A DNA stretch of 64,000 nucleotides, taken from contig CABYRH010000001.1 in NCBI GenBank assembly GCA_902521315.1, forward strand, positions 1 to 64,000, written 5' to 3'. Under the pieces are notes generated by a model that saw only the letters and a list, made by a program, of their open reading frames with translations, was not told the DNA's origin and made no database searches. The DNA is from an uncultured Alphaproteobacteria bacterium. Lineage in GTDB: Bacteria; Pseudomonadota; Alphaproteobacteria; HIMB59; GCA-002718135. This document shows, piece by piece, positions 10,218 to 28,502 of the stretch (positions are counted from its first letter, which is position 1; every line of letters starts with the position of its first letter). The position numbers and the translations under genes are program-made.

Positions 10218-10925
10218 ATGAAAGTTGATAAAGATCAAATATCCGCATGGGGTGTGCATGCCTTTACTGGTTCTGGAGCTATACTGGGGTTTCTTGCCTT
10301 AATATCAATATTAAATAATGATCAAGTTGGAAGTTTTTTATGGCTTGGTATGGCCTTACTTGTAGATGGAGTTGATGGAACTTTAGCCAGGAAGGTTGGT
10401 GTTGAGGAAAAAGCGCCAAATCTAGATGGAATTATTTTAGATTCCATAATTGATTATCTAAATTACGTTATTAACCCAGCTTTAATGATTTACTGGTTTC
10501 AGATGGTGCCATCAGGTTTTGAAATGATTATGCCTGCTCTTATATTTGGAGTTTCTTTGTATACTTTTATCAACGTTAATATGAAAACGGATGATTATTA
10601 TTTCCAAGGTTTTCCTGCAGTCTGGAATGTTGTGGTTTTATATTTCTTTATATTAAACACTAATGAATGGATAAACCTAATTGTGATAATTATTCTATCA
10701 GTATTGACATTCGTCCCATGGAAGTTTGTTCATCCACTAAGAGTAAAATCATTTAGAAATTTAACGATTTTTTTTACTGTTGTTTGGGCAGCAACAACAC
10801 TACGATTAGTCACAAAATCAGAAATAAATTTAATTATAAATGATACAATTGTTCTTTTAATATGGTTAATTTGTACGGGCTATTTTATTTATATTTGTTT
10901 TCTTAGATCGATAAAAGACTACTAA
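10218..10925 (+). CDS. pcs: CDP-alcohol phosphatidyltransferase, phosphatidylcholine synthase-like
   Basis: CDP-alcohol motif DGVDGTLAR...DGIILDSIIDY and multiple TM segments; start KVDKDQISAWGVHAFTGSGA is typical of Pcs. Confidence 0.8.
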   Translation: MKVDKDQISAWGVHAFTGSGAILGFLALISILNNDQVGSFLWLGMALLVDGVDGTLARKVGVEEKAPNLDGIILDSIIDYLNYVINPALMIYWFQMVPSGFEMIMPALIFGVSLYTFINVNMKTDDYYFQGFPAVWNVVVLYFFILNTNEWINLIVIIILSVLTFVPWKFVHPLRVKSFRNLTIFFTVVWAATTLRLVTKSEINLIINDTIVLLIWLICTGYFIYICFLRSIKDY

Positions 10926-11028
10926 AAGCGTAAGTAATGCAATATTTTTTGTATATGCAAAAAATGCATATCAGATAAGTATGAAATTCATTTTTAAAAA
11001 TAAATAAATTTTATTATTAAATTTTCAT

Positions 11029-11079
11029 CGTTCATTTTGAATAATTCAAAACGGAAGTAAACGAAAGTTGAAGGAACGC
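11029..11079 (+). ncRNA. L-glutamine riboswitch (glnA RNA motif), tandem copy 1
   Basis: P1 CGTTC(11029-11033)/GAACG(11074-11078); P2 TTTTGAA-TAA-TTCAAAA; conserved CGGAAGTA (11052-11059); P3 AAC-GAAA-GTT; GAAGGAACGC. Matches the recalled glnA consensus. Confidence 0.85.
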
Positions 11080-11095
11080 ATGCAAGTTATTAAAT

Positions 11096-11145
11096 CGTTC
11101 AATCTGTATTAACAGATCGGAAGTAGGCTAAAGCTGAAGGAACGC
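11096..11145 (+). ncRNA. L-glutamine riboswitch (glnA RNA motif), tandem copy 2
   Basis: P1 CGTTC(11096-11100)/GAACG(11140-11144); P2 ATCTGT-ATTA-ACAGAT; CGGAAGTA (11118-11125); P3 GGC-TAAA-GCT; GAAGGAACGC. Confidence 0.87.
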
Positions 11146-11163
11146 GGATCTTATTATTAATTT

Positions 11164-11215
11164 CCATAGCTAGGCATGAATTATAACGGATAAGAAAGGT
11201 TTGTTATAACTATGG
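11164..11215 (+). promoter_or_regulatory. Bulged hairpin downstream of the tandem riboswitch; candidate expression platform
   Basis: CCATAG (11164-11169)/CTATGG (11210-11215) plus TTATAAC (11181-11187)/GTTATAA (11203-11209). Confidence 0.5.
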
Positions 11216-11274
11216 TTAAAAAATTAGATAAAAAAAAGATTTTCATCTCAAATCTCAAGAGGTTTACTCCTTAA
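11212..11274 (+). CDS. Possible 20-aa leader peptide MVKKLDKKKIFISNLKRFTP
   Basis: ATG lies in the 3' arm of the hairpin; stop TAA (11272-11274) overlaps the next ATG as TAATG. Confidence 0.4.
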   Translation: MVKKLDKKKIFISNLKRFTP

Positions 11275-12680
11275 TGTTTAATGAAATGTATCAATCTGAG
11301 TCAGTTATAAGAAATCATTATAACAACATTAATGATTGGTTAGATCAAATGACTTCAAAAGTTATTCTTGAAAAGAATGCTGAAGCAGAAACTCATTTTA
11401 GAAATATTGGAATTACATTTTCTACAAACAACGAAACTGCAAGAGAAAGAATTATTCCGTTTGATTTAATTCCAAGGATATTTACCTATACTGAATGGTT
11501 AAGGTTAGAAAGAGGAGTAATTCAAAGAGCTAAAGCACTTAATGCGTTTCTTGCTGATATTTATAATCAAGGTGAAATAATAAAAGCCAATATAATCCCT
11601 AAAGAAATTATTTACAAAAAAAAATCTTTTGAACCTTCAATGTTTGGGTTTTCTCCTCCTAGAGATATCTATAGTCCTATAATTGGTATTGATTTAGTAA
11701 GAACAGGCCCTAATGATTATTTTGTTTTAGAAGATAATTGTCGAACACCAAGTGGTGTTTCCTACATGCTAGAAAATAGAGAAATAATGATGCGAATGTT
11801 TCCCGATCTATTTCATAACAACAGAGTAACACCAATAGATGACTACCCAACAAGACTTTTGCAAACCTTGATGAGTTTAGCTCCTATTAAATGTGAAAAT
11901 CCTGAACCAGTATGTGTGTTACTTACACCTGGTCCTTTAAATAGCGCTTATTACGAACATAGTTTTTTATCAGATCAAATGGGTATTGAAATGGTTGAAT
12001 CAACAGATTTATTTGTTGAGGGAAAATTTCTTTATATGAAAACAGTTGATGGTCCAAAAAGAGTAGATGTAGTTTACAGAAGAATTGATGATGATTTTTT
12101 AGATCCTCTATGTTTTAATCCTCAATCTGTAATTGGTATTCCAGGAATTATGGATGTTTATAGAACAGGTGGTGTCAATATCTGTTCAGCTCCTGGAGCA
12201 GGCATAGCTGATGACAAAGCAATTTATATTTATGTACCTGAGATGATTAAATTTTATTTAGGCGAACAACCAATCTTAGATAATGTTGAAACATGGAATT
12301 GCGAAAAGGAACAAGAATTAAAATATGTTTTAGATAATATAAATGAACTTGTCGTGAAAGAGGTTGATGGATCTGGAGGTTATGGGATGTTAATAGGCCC
12401 AAAATCTTCTAAATCCTCTATAGATGAATTTAAAACAAAACTTTCAACAAATCCAAAAGGATATATAGCTCAACCTTTACTTGATCTTTCATTTTCACCA
12501 ACACTCATCAAAAATCAAGTTGAGGGAAGAAGGGTAGATTTACGTCCATTTTGTTTAATTGGAGAGCAAGCTCAATTAAGTTCTGGTGGTTTAACTAGAG
12601 TTGCAATGAATGAAGGTTCGTTTGTTGTGAATTCTAGCCAAGGAGGTGGTGTGAAAGACACATGGGTTTTAGCTGAATGA
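11274..12680 (+). CDS. Circularly permuted ATP-grasp protein (DUF404/DUF407-type)
   Basis: LRLERGVIQRAKALNAFLADIY, GIDLVRTGPNDYFVLEDNCRTPSGVSYMLENRE, RRIDDDFLDP, VDGSGGYGMLIGP motifs. Confidence 0.92.
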   Translation: MFNEMYQSESVIRNHYNNINDWLDQMTSKVILEKNAEAETHFRNIGITFSTNNETARERIIPFDLIPRIFTYTEWLRLERGVIQRAKALNAFLADIYNQGEIIKANIIPKEIIYKKKSFEPSMFGFSPPRDIYSPIIGIDLVRTGPNDYFVLEDNCRTPSGVSYMLENREIMMRMFPDLFHNNRVTPIDDYPTRLLQTLMSLAPIKCENPEPVCVLLTPGPLNSAYYEHSFLSDQMGIEMVESTDLFVEGKFLYMKTVDGPKRVDVVYRRIDDDFLDPLCFNPQSVIGIPGIMDVYRTGGVNICSAPGAGIADDKAIYIYVPEMIKFYLGEQPILDNVETWNCEKEQELKYVLDNINELVVKEVDGSGGYGMLIGPKSSKSSIDEFKTKLSTNPKGYIAQPLLDLSFSPTLIKNQVEGRRVDLRPFCLIGEQAQLSSGGLTRVAMNEGSFVVNSSQGGGVKDTWVLAE

Positions 12681-12689
12681 GAAATAAAA

Positions 12690-13625
12690 ATGTTAAGTAG
12701 AACTGCTGAATATCTATATTGGATAAGCCGCTATATGGAGCGAGCAGAAACGACAGCCAGGCTTTTGGATGTTGGTTATAGAATGTCTCTTTTTCCAAAT
12801 CCAAGTGGTTATAATAATGAATGGGAATCAGTTTTATCCGCTGCTGGCGCAATTGAAGGATATAAAAATAAATATGATACAATTGAACAAAGAAATGTTG
12901 AAGATTATTTATTTTTTGATGAAAGTAATACTTCATCTGTTTACAATTGCATTCTTAATGCAAGAAATAACGCATTAGTGGTCAGAACTTCCTTTACCCC
13001 TGAGTCTTGGTTAGCAATTAATAAAACTTATCAAGAGATATTAAACTTAAAAGAAAAAAAATTTTCTAAATCTGATTTACCTGATCTTACAGAGTGGACC
13101 ATAGAACAAGTAAACTTATTTAGAGGATCGTTAAGTTCATTACTTAGAAATGATGGTTATAATTTTCTTTTTCTTGGTTTATTTATTGAAAGGGCTGATA
13201 ATTCTGCCAGATTATTAGATGTAAAGTATTTTGTTTTATTACCTAAGCCTCAATATGTAGGTGGTAATATCGATAATATGCAATGGAGTATATTGCTTCG
13301 CTCTTTATCTTCTTTTAGAGCTTTTAGATGGGCATACGATGGTAATATTACCGCAACTAAAATTGCTGACTTTTTAGTTTTAAATAATAATTGCCCTAGA
13401 TCTTTAAGTTTTTGTATTCAGAATATTGTTAAACATTTAACTAACCTAACATGCAGTCCAGAAAAAGTTGGAAGAATTTATAATAATTTAAAAGATCTAA
13501 ATACCAAAATTCAAGAAGAAAAAATAGAAACTATTGTTGAATATGGACTTCATCAATTTGTAACACAATTTATTAGAAAAATATCTAGTGTTGATAACGA
13601 AATACATAAGGAGTTTTTTAATTAA
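12690..13625 (+). CDS. Alpha-E domain protein (DUF403)
   Basis: MLSRTAEYLYWISRYMERAETTARLLDV hallmark N-terminus; IERADNSARLLDVKYF. Confidence 0.93.
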   Translation: MLSRTAEYLYWISRYMERAETTARLLDVGYRMSLFPNPSGYNNEWESVLSAAGAIEGYKNKYDTIEQRNVEDYLFFDESNTSSVYNCILNARNNALVVRTSFTPESWLAINKTYQEILNLKEKKFSKSDLPDLTEWTIEQVNLFRGSLSSLLRNDGYNFLFLGLFIERADNSARLLDVKYFVLLPKPQYVGGNIDNMQWSILLRSLSSFRAFRWAYDGNITATKIADFLVLNNNCPRSLSFCIQNIVKHLTNLTCSPEKVGRIYNNLKDLNTKIQEEKIETIVEYGLHQFVTQFIRKISSVDNEIHKEFFN

Positions 13626-13626
13626 T

Positions 13627-14466
13627 ATGGAACTAATAATCGAACACACAACTAAATATGAATATAAAAATCCAGTTGCGGGATTAATTCAAACCACTAA
13701 ACTGCATCCTTCAGAATATAATGGTCTTAAAATTCTAGAGTGGAATGTCCATAACGACTCAGCCAAAAAATCAAATATTTATCAGGATGGTGAAGCTAAT
13801 AATATTCAAAGTTTTACAAATACAAACAAAGTGAAAAAAATACAATTTACAGTTCTTGGAAAAGTTGAAACATTTGATACAAAAGGAATTTACCAGAGCG
13901 CCTCTGATAAAATAGATCCATTAGTCTACTTAAGAGAATCAAATTTAACAAAAGCAAATGCAGATATAAAAAATTTAGCTATTGAAGCTAAAAATGGTTT
14001 TAATGAAAACGAAAATCTAGAAACATCTCATAATTTGATGAATCTAGTAGCTGAAAAAATTGAATACAAACCTTTAACGACAAATAATCAAACAACAGCT
14101 ATTGAAGCATTTAATCAGAAAAAAGGAGTCTGCCAGGATCAAGCTCATATTATGATTGCCGCAGCAAAAACTTTAGGAATACCTGCTAGATACGTTAATG
14201 GTTATATGCATAACAATTCCCATTCTTCAGAATTTCAATCTACACATGCGTGGGCAGAATTTTATATAAATGATTTAGGTTGGGTCGGATTTGATCCCAC
14301 AAATAAGTGCAGTCCAGATGAAAGATACGTACGTGTTTCTTGTGGACTTGATGCAAGTTACGCATCACCTATTAAAGGTGTTTTTTATGGAAATATTAAT
14401 AATGATGCTCAAATAGAAAATCTAGATATTCATGTTCAAACTTTAGAAAATAATTCTCAACAATAA
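13627..14466 (+). CDS. Transglutaminase-like domain protein
   Basis: ELIIEHTTKYEY...; catalytic pattern KKGVCQDQAHIMIAAAKTLGIPARYVNGY, HAWAEFYINDLGWVGFDPT; ATG at 13627 preferred over the track start at 13588. Confidence 0.92.
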   Translation: MELIIEHTTKYEYKNPVAGLIQTTKLHPSEYNGLKILEWNVHNDSAKKSNIYQDGEANNIQSFTNTNKVKKIQFTVLGKVETFDTKGIYQSASDKIDPLVYLRESNLTKANADIKNLAIEAKNGFNENENLETSHNLMNLVAEKIEYKPLTTNNQTTAIEAFNQKKGVCQDQAHIMIAAAKTLGIPARYVNGYMHNNSHSSEFQSTHAWAEFYINDLGWVGFDPTNKCSPDERYVRVSCGLDASYASPIKGVFYGNINNDAQIENLDIHVQTLENNSQQ

Positions 14467-14521: not shown

Positions 14522-14884
14522 ATGTTTCAAAATAAAAAACTACTTCAGTATTTATGGATTTTTAAACCTGAATTAAATGATATTGCAAAAAGAATTGCTG
14601 AAGATCATACAAAATGGATGAATGAAACACATACAAAAGAGGGGGATAAAGCGCTTCTAATGTTAAATTGGTCCATGGGTCCCGAATTCAAAGATGGAAA
14701 TAAAACTGGTAATATGTCTTTAATCTTAACAGAAGTTTATGAAAATCAAGCGGGAATAGATGATCATTTTGAACAAGCACAAAACAATGGCGCAACTTTT
14801 AGAGATGATTTTAGTGATTTTGAAAACAAATGTGAAAATTTAGTAAAAATCAATAGTTCTGATATTATCCATTCAATGTGGTAA
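14522..14884 (+). CDS. Hypothetical protein, possibly dimeric alpha/beta-barrel-like
   Basis: Strong SD AAAGGAGGAAAT before the ATG; 120 aa. Confidence 0.65.
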   Translation: MFQNKKLLQYLWIFKPELNDIAKRIAEDHTKWMNETHTKEGDKALLMLNWSMGPEFKDGNKTGNMSLILTEVYENQAGIDDHFEQAQNNGATFRDDFSDFENKCENLVKINSSDIIHSMW

Positions 14885-25390: not shown

Positions 25391-26185
25391 ATGGACAAAC
25401 TACTCCAAAGATCAAATGGAAAAATAGATATAGCATTATTAGATAATGATTTTTCAAAATTTTTTCAAAGTGGTTGTTGTAAAATCTTAAATCCAAAAAA
25501 TTATAATGAATTTAAAGAATTAGTTTTAATTAATACTTCTGGAGGCATTACTTGTAATGATAATATTGAAATTAATGCTGTTATTAATAATTCTCAATTG
25601 AGTATTTGTACTCAGGCTGCAGAAAAAATTTATGCAGGAATTGGTGACCCTGCTAGAGTAGAAATAAATATAAATTTAAATAATTCTACTATGTATTGGT
25701 TACCAAAAGAATTAATTTTATTTGATAATTCAAAGTTAAGAAGAAATATCAATATTAATCTATCAGATAATTCAAATTTAATTTTTTGTGAAACAACAAT
25801 TTTTGGAAGAAAAGCAATGTCTGAAAAAATTAAAAATATTTCTTTTTCTGATCAATGGAAAATAAATTCAAATTCTTCCATAAAGCATTTTGAAGCAATT
25901 AATATTAAAGGATCAACGATTGATAATTTCAATAACAATTATACTTTTTCTAATCAATCATCTTTATCAACAATTTTAATTTTTGGTGACATTGTTCATC
26001 AACTAGAGTCTGTATTAAAAAAAGTTAAAAAAAACTTAGGAAATCACTATTGTGAAATGACAAAATTTGATAATAAAATTATCATTAGATGCTTAGCAGA
26101 TGATAATTATGATTTAAAAAAAACACTAAATATTATTATGAAAAATGTAATAAATGATAAACTACCAAAAAGTTGGTATCTATAA
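25391..26185 (+). CDS. ureD: Urease accessory protein UreD
   Basis: Position upstream of ureA; GGITCNDNIEINAVI, TQAAEKIY, RRNINI. Confidence 0.88.
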   Translation: MDKLLQRSNGKIDIALLDNDFSKFFQSGCCKILNPKNYNEFKELVLINTSGGITCNDNIEINAVINNSQLSICTQAAEKIYAGIGDPARVEININLNNSTMYWLPKELILFDNSKLRRNININLSDNSNLIFCETTIFGRKAMSEKIKNISFSDQWKINSNSSIKHFEAINIKGSTIDNFNNNYTFSNQSSLSTILIFGDIVHQLESVLKKVKKNLGNHYCEMTKFDNKIIIRCLADDNYDLKKTLNIIMKNVINDKLPKSWYL

Positions 26186-26488
26186 ATGAAATTAACACCA
26201 AGAGAAAAAGATAAGTTGATGGTCAGTATGGCAGCTAATGTTGCTAGAAAACGTCTAGAAAGAGGTGTTAAACTTAACTACCCAGAAGCTATAGCCTTGA
26301 TAACAGATTTTGTCATAGAGGGCGCAAGAGATGGAAAAATGGTATCAGAATTAATGGAAACAGGAGCTTACGTAGTAAAAAAAGAAGATTGTATGGATGG
26401 TATTCCAGATATGATTCCAGAAGTACAGGTTGAAGCGACATTTCCAGATGGAACAAAATTAGTAACAGTACATAAACCAATTAGATAA
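26186..26488 (+). CDS. ureA: Urease subunit gamma
   Basis: [39 protein letters not shown]. Confidence 0.97.
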
Positions 26489-26796
26489 TGAAACCTGGAG
26501 AAATAATAACAAAGCAAAATAGTGATATTAATTTGAACGATCAACGACAATCAATCATTTTAAAAGTTTCAAATAGTGGAGACCGGCCGATACAAGTTGG
26601 TAGTCATTATCATTTTGCTGAAACCAATGAATATTTAAAATTTGATAGAAAAAAATCAAATGGTATGCGTTTAGATATACCATCTGGCACAGCTGTTCGG
26701 TTTGAACCTGGTCAATCAAAAGATGTAGAATTAATTCCAATAACGGGAAATAGAAAGATATTTGGTTTTAATAAAAAAGTTATGGGTCAATTGTAA
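26488..26796 (+). CDS. ureB: Urease subunit beta
   Basis: MKPGEI...[33 protein letters not shown]. Confidence 0.97.
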
Positions 26797-28502
26797 TGAA
26801 AAAAATAAAGAGAGAAGCTTATGCTGATATGTATGGGCCAACAACTGGTGATAAAGTTAGACTTGCTGATACTGAATTATTTATTGAAGTGGAAAAAGAT
26901 TTAACAACTTATGGAGAAGAAGTAAAATTTGGTGGTGGAAAAGTTATTCGAGATGGAATGGGACAATCTCAAGTATCTCGTAAAGAAGGTGCTGTTGATA
27001 CAGTTATAACAAACGCTTTAATAGTAGATGTAAATGGAATTTATAAAGCTGATATTGGTCTTAAGGATGGATTAATTTATGAAATTGGTAAGGCTGGTAA
27101 TCCAGATACACAACCTAATGTAAATATTATTATTGGACCTGGAACAGAAATAATTGCTGGTGAAGGCAAAATTATAACAGCTGGTGGATTTGACAGTCAT
27201 ATACATTTTATTTGTCCTCAGCAAATAGATGATGCACTTCATTCAGGTATTACAACTATGTTGGGAGGTGGAACTGGTCCTGCACACGGCACTTTAGCGA
27301 CTACAGTTACACCTGGACCATGGCATATAGAAAAAATGATACAATCAGCTGAAGCATTTTCTATGAACTTAGCTTTTGCAGGAAAAGGAAATAGTTCTTT
27401 ACCTAAAGCTCTTGAAGAACAAGTAATAGCCGGTGCATCTTCACTAAAATTACATGAAGATTGGGGTACAACTCCCGCAGCGATAGATAATTGTTTAAAT
27501 GTAGCAGATGATCATGACATTCAAGTAATGATTCATACGGATACATTAAATGAAAGTGGATTTGTAGAAAATACAATTAAAGCAATTAATGGCAGAACTA
27601 TTCATGCTTTTCATACGGAAGGAGCTGGTGGAGGTCATGCGCCGGATATAATTAAAGTATGCGGAGAACAGTATGTTATTCCGTCATCTACAAATCCAAC
27701 AAGACCATACACAATTAATACAGTTGAAGAACATTTAGATATGTTAATGGTTTGTCATCACTTGGATAAATCAATACCTGAAGATGTTGCTTTTGCAGAA
27801 AGTCGAATTCGAAAAGAAACAATTGCTGCGGAAGATATACTCCATGACATGGGTGCTTTTTCAATTATTGCTTCTGATAGTCAAGCCATGGGTCGTGTTG
27901 GAGAGGTTATTATTAGAACATGGCAAACAGCACATAAAATGAAAGTTCAACGGGGACAATTAAAAGAAGAGCAGGGTAATAACGACAATGTAAGAGTTAA
28001 AAGATACATAGCTAAATATACAATTAATCCTGCAATAGCACATGGTATTTCTGATCATATTGGAAGTATCAAAAAAAATAAACGTGCTGATATTGTTATT
28101 TGGGACACTGCTTTCTTTGGCGTTAAACCTGAAATGGTATTACAAGGTGGAAGTATTGCTTGTGCACAAATGGGTGATCCAAATGCTTCTATTCCAACAC
28201 CTCAACCAGTATATTCTAGACCAATGTTTTCTTCTTTTGGAAAATCATTAGAAAAATCTACTGTTACTTTTGTAAGTAAAGTTTCTTTAGATAAAGATTC
28301 ATTTAAAAACTCTGGAGTAAGTAAATCTCTGTTACCTGTTAAAAATATAAGAAAAATTTCTAAAAAAAATATGATGTTAAATGATTATTGTCCGAAAATA
28401 GAAGTGAATCCAGAAACTTATGAAGTTTTAGCAGATGGTGAATTAATTACCTGTGAGCCAGCAGAAACACTACCTTTAGCTCAACGTTATTTTATGTATT
28501 AA
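26796..28502 (+). CDS. ureC: Urease subunit alpha
   Basis: Nickel/active-site motifs [39 protein letters not shown]. Confidence 0.98.

Follow-up and report, generated by a model that had tools for sequence, protein, structure and literature searches.

Two glutamine-I riboswitch aptamers in a single leader probably place an operon for a circularly permuted (CP) ATP-grasp protein, an alpha-E protein and a transglutaminase-like protein in the same glutamine-controlled nitrogen regulon as glnA and genes for ammonium transporters; we put the probability of this reading at roughly 0.8. The operon lies in a stretch of 64,000 nucleotides, the whole of which is called the window here, from a genome of 1.54 Mb (35 contigs, 87% complete) of the uncultured family GCA-002718135 (GTDB), order HIMB59. 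A genome-wide search returned eight matches to the glutamine-I model (RF01739), which make up four tandem pairs: besides the pair preceding the ATP-grasp operon, one sits between glnB and glnA (locus L009) and the other two precede two marine-subtype ammonium transporters (L010). The predicted riboswitch targets form a nitrogen regulon of four transcripts, larger than one operon, in a family with no detected GlnD.

Direct reading of the sequence gives the first copy of the motif from CGTTC, beginning at 11029, to GGAACGC, finishing at 11079, and the second from 11096 to 11145, so the two copies with a 16-nt gap described in the earlier note are where it placed them. Its account of the hairpins is also accurate: P2 differs in sequence (TTTTGAA/TTCAAAA versus ATCTGT/ACAGAT) yet stays paired, and P3 passes from AAC/GTT to GGC/GCT with pairing kept. 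The assignment to the glnA RNA glutamine riboswitch, for which a search with the Rfam covariance model had been proposed, is borne out for both copies, as aptamer 1 (11027–11082, + strand) scores 66.0 bits (cmscan, E 2.1e-12) and aptamer 2 (11094–11148, +) 64.2 bits (E 6.8e-12), far over the Rfam gathering cut-off of 35 bits. Both alignments cover the full length of the model (1–53), and the conserved core letters agree with it. Among 135 distinct aptamers from related leaders, 134 retain all four basal P2 pairs, with 23 distinct P2 sequences; full P3 pairing is seen in 124, with 17 distinct sequences. These scores, with the eight matches in the genome, rule out a chance match, and the identity of the aptamers as glutamine-I riboswitches, judged from sequence, is secure.

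We infer that both aptamers bind glutamine. The aptamers could instead be relics or respond to another ligand, but this is very improbable given the agreement of the core letters with the model, the survival of P2 and P3 pairing through sequence change across the 135 aptamers, and the placement 5' of nitrogen and glutamine genes, with glutamine synthetase and two ammonium transporters among the targets beside the ATP-grasp operon.

The three genes that the earlier note had named downstream of the aptamers all have Pfam matches on the + strand: a CP-ATP-grasp type 2 protein (11274–12680; PF14403, CP_ATPgrasp_2, 5.6e-153, and PF04174, 3.5e-138), an Alpha-E (DUF403) protein (12690–13625; PF04168, 6e-86) and a transglutaminase-like protein (13627–14466; PF01841, Transglut_core, 1.2e-24, and PF08379, Bact_transglu_N, 1.6e-12). 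An ORF of 120 aa 3' of the transglutaminase gene (14522–14884, +) has no Pfam or NCBIfam match. The same three gene families occur together in the Anbu-associated ATP-grasp/alpha-E/transglutaminase operon (PMC5666114, citing Iyer et al. 2009), from which the operon in the window differs in having no Anbu peptidase gene. The single PF00227 match in the window's genome is on another contig (C4) and is likely HslV. In the order's other, sister family there is a second PF00227 match, adjoining the ATP-grasp gene; this proteasome-fold gene lies on the opposite strand (G103:C3:61359-61934 and G101:C2:71239-71814) and is possibly Anbu.

The motif is present in 98 of 100 genomes from the window's family and in 0 of 50 from the sister family. 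The sample of the class contained it in 6/387 genomes, namely two from the window's own genus and four from a second alphaproteobacterial family, f10, and in the sample of the phylum it was found only in the window's own genome. Both cultured strains of the order fall in family HIMB59, the other family being GCA-002718135 (PMC10734472). A survey of orthologous operons, as the earlier note had suggested, revealed both aptamers at each of the genus's 47 ATP-grasp loci whose upstream sequence is long enough, a count that leaves aside three further loci truncated by contig ends; since the 47 loci are close relatives, their conservation shows maintenance, not many independent events. In family f10 the ATP-grasp gene is the only site of the aptamer, a single copy lying directly upstream of an orthologue 61–62% identical to the window's. 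Presence of the motif in the SAR11 orthologues was ruled out, as neither a loose-pattern match nor an Rfam hit was found at the loci examined, and searches of phage records found no similar DNA. Single glutamine-I aptamers lacking the linker and P4 element described below also precede putative ammonium transporter genes at L011, L149, L151 and L155; judged by eye, the translations look like a further ammonium transporter type.

The window's ATP-grasp protein shares 73–76% identity with proteins whose records bear the name Pelagibacteraceae (SAR11) but about 50% with that of the sister family, and no ATP-grasp match was present in nine genomes of other genera of the window's family; this distribution suggests that the operon was transferred into the window's genus and was thereafter placed under the existing regulon.

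The two aptamers of each tandem leader are joined by a conserved linker, which is complementary to an element on the far side of aptamer 2. The linker in the window (CATGC-A-AGTTAT, 11079–11090, +) directly adjoins the 3' strand of the first aptamer's P1 and is common to the glnA, amtB and CP-ATP-grasp leaders; across all 55 non-redundant tandem leaders its consensus is CATGC (CGTGC in three), A(1–3), AGTTAT (varied in one). The element 3' of aptamer 2 (ATAGCT-AG-GCATG, 11166–11178, +) has the consensus ATARCT-N(2–3)-GCATG in the same leaders. Together they would form a helix, P4, that begins immediately after P1 of aptamer 1 and encloses aptamer 2, with 11/11 pairs in 54 of the leaders and 9/11 in the remaining one, and with an internal loop that is mostly 3x3 in glnA, 2x2 in amtB and 1x2 in CP-ATP-grasp leaders. 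In four leaders, 5 to 14 of 2000 shuffled linkers gave an equal or better duplex. P4 was found by inspection, and of the several pairings of the 3' element viewed by eye it alone held in all leaders. The changes seen across the 55 leaders are one-sided wobbles and matched internal-loop sizes, with no two-sided covariation. We consider it likely, from this complementarity, that helix P4 forms.

It is quite possible, at somewhat short of even odds, that the aptamers are two independent riboswitches in series, acting pseudo-cooperatively, and that P4 is incidental. Tandem glutamine riboswitches are classed in this way in a review of tandem riboswitches (PMC9481103), and the P4 strands are so nearly invariant that covariation is unable to prove the helix. 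Against independence, a single initiation region lies 3' of both aptamers, every tandem leader examined keeps the linker and the 3' element complementary to it, and neither a terminator nor a second initiation region was seen between the aptamers, although other kinds of platform could escape a reading of the sequence. The P4 complementarity makes the layout compatible with a cooperative riboswitch of two aptamers and one platform. More speculatively, P4 in such a coupled arrangement would enclose aptamer 2 and stack on the P1 helix of the first aptamer, and both aptamers would act through it on the one initiation region. Such a layout would resemble the tandem glycine riboswitch, with its two aptamers, one expression platform and structured linker; the present leaders differ from it in ligand and aptamer.

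The leader of the window's ATP-grasp operon is closer to the amtB leaders than to those of glnA. Overlapping the P4 element is the sequence TTTCCAT (11161–11167, +), a weak candidate for a strand sequestering the initiation region: in the glnA leaders, as in those of amtB, TTTC(C)AT is complementary to start and Shine–Dalgarno (SD) regions in a class-specific manner, but the TTTCCAT of ATP-grasp leaders matches amtB start regions better than its own. In the window's leader CCATAG is able to pair with CTATGG at the start of a leader ORF, a pairing that is inconsistent over other CP-ATP-grasp leaders. TTTCCAT was accordingly rejected as a universal anti-SD strand, as it suits the glnA and amtB leaders and not the ATP-grasp leaders as a class. 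Next comes a predicted hairpin, P5 (11181–11209, +), with an SD-like GAAAGG (11194–11199) in or near its loop; its sequence differs from leader to leader, yet most are predicted to form a hairpin there (median z about -1.8 versus shuffles). Thermodynamic folding revealed no clear dependence of SD exposure on the aptamers.

In ATP-grasp leaders a short ORF begins 3' of P5; in the window it has 20 codons (11212–11274, +; MVKKLDKKKIFISNLKRFTP), and its stop overlaps the ATP-grasp start (TAATG). Such an ORF, of 16–25 codons and ending at most 10 nt from the ATP-grasp start, is open in 48/48 tandem ATP-grasp leaders, and its codon-position variation leans weakly to third positions. By chance, an ending near the ATP-grasp start would be expected with a probability of about 0.06 to 0.20 in each sequence group; because these groups are related, the conservation is supportive and yields no strict probability.

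The coupled ORF, together with the failure to see any terminator-like site in 10900–11400, which led us to reject an intrinsic terminator in this leader, points to control acting on translation. Control through transcription, by intrinsic or Rho-dependent termination, is rather unlikely. P5 does end in a T-run in some glnA leaders of the family (for example, L135), and Rho-dependent termination would be compatible with the sequence; set against this are the lack of a terminator-like site in the window's leader and of a clear T-run after P5 in the amtB and ATP-grasp leaders.

We therefore favor, as most likely, a translational switch that would reduce expression at high glutamine: the aptamers would bind glutamine when it is plentiful, and expression of the operon would fall. 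This direction is drawn from the co-regulated genes, which encode glutamine synthetase and ammonium transporters, and from the response of the same operon to nitrogen in other bacteria. The NtrC regulon of Burkholderia cenocepacia lists DUF404/407 and DUF403 genes at -8.2 and -9.4 (PMC5491218), and in Pseudomonas putida CP-ATP-grasp and proteasome-like genes are up on nitrate versus ammonium, with log2 values of 3.99 and 4.44 (PMC8050072); nitrogen control of the operon therefore exists in other bacteria by another route, the Burkholderia operon being under NtrC and the window's operon having a riboswitch leader. A switch of opposite sense, in which glutamine raises expression, is distinctly unlikely. 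The glutamine-I and Downstream-peptide riboswitches that have been studied do activate with glutamine, as at cyanobacterial gifB (PMC6316151), and if P4 is favored in the bound RNA the candidate sequestering strand would be partly engaged, which could free the start region. An activating leader, however, would make glnA and amtB, which have the same leader type, rise under plentiful nitrogen, and elsewhere it is nitrogen shortage that induces the operon (PMC5491218, PMC8050072). What the gifB switch turns on is an inhibitor of glutamine synthetase (PMC6316151), and its physiological sense thus agrees with that of a repressing switch at glutamine synthetase and transporter genes.

The distribution of the protein components of nitrogen sensing was compared with that of the riboswitch. 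GlnD was found in 10/10 sister-family genomes examined and in 0/30 genomes of the riboswitch family; this comparison is one contrast between two families, and GlnD absence and riboswitch presence may reflect a single event. Sigma-54 was found in neither family (0/30 and 0/10 genomes), and its absence therefore predates the riboswitch contrast. No protein of the riboswitch family reaches the NtrC cut-off, and the weaker full-length hits may be NtrX. Family f10 mostly retains GlnD and sigma-54, and one genome of the window's family (G001, 93% complete) has neither GlnD nor riboswitch. GlnD was not found in this family and a PII gene is present; a plausible reading is that here the riboswitch fills GlnD's place as the glutamine sensor. 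A fuller scenario, in which the family replaced GlnD sensing with truly cooperative riboswitches sharing a platform through P4 and brought an ATP-grasp operon gained by horizontal transfer under their control, we regard as doubtful. The PII protein itself (L009 3689-4030) apparently retains a tyrosine near the usual modification site although no GlnD was found in the family, and its T-loop is unlike that of E. coli.

The kind of aptamer, its tandem arrangement and its marine nitrogen-gene associations are already known. Tandem glnA RNAs and glnA RNAs preceding nitrogen genes, and associations with PII, glutamine synthetase and ammonium transporters, were reported for marine sequences (PMC2864571), and 157 glutamine-riboswitch doublets have been counted (PMC9481103). 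Our leaders share with known glutamine-I riboswitches the core, helices, nitrogen-assimilation targets and full-length model match, and with the pseudo-cooperative tandems two same-ligand aptamers in one leader; they differ from the former in their alphaproteobacterial host family, CP-ATP-grasp operon target, conserved P4 complementarity and coupled leader ORF, and from the latter in that one initiation region and the linker/element complementarity suggest one shared platform. The novelty appears to lie in the regulon, in its ATP-grasp target and in the arrangement of two aptamers before a single start. We found no earlier report of the P4 complementarity or the ATP-grasp leader ORF in the literature covered, which takes in Ames and Breaker 2011 and Klahn 2018 through papers citing them; either of these two may already mention P4 or this target.

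A 2018 review restricted glutamine riboswitches to cyanobacteria and assigned the associations with glutamine synthetase, PII and transporters to uncultured environmental sequences (PMC6316151); these environmental RNAs now gain a bacterial lineage, and the contrast between two sister families sets the absence of a protein glutamine sensor beside the presence of an RNA one. A little-understood operon of peptide-ligase type would be linked to glutamine status through a different route from the NtrC control of other Proteobacteria, supporting the idea that it has a role in nitrogen stress, and the P4 layout offers a directly testable case of coupled aptamers.

Elsewhere in the window, a urease gene cluster (25391–28502) includes ureC (26796–28502), antisense to which is a match to Rfam RF02514 (5' ureB sRNA; 26949–27228, - strand) that probably arises from ureC coding similarity.
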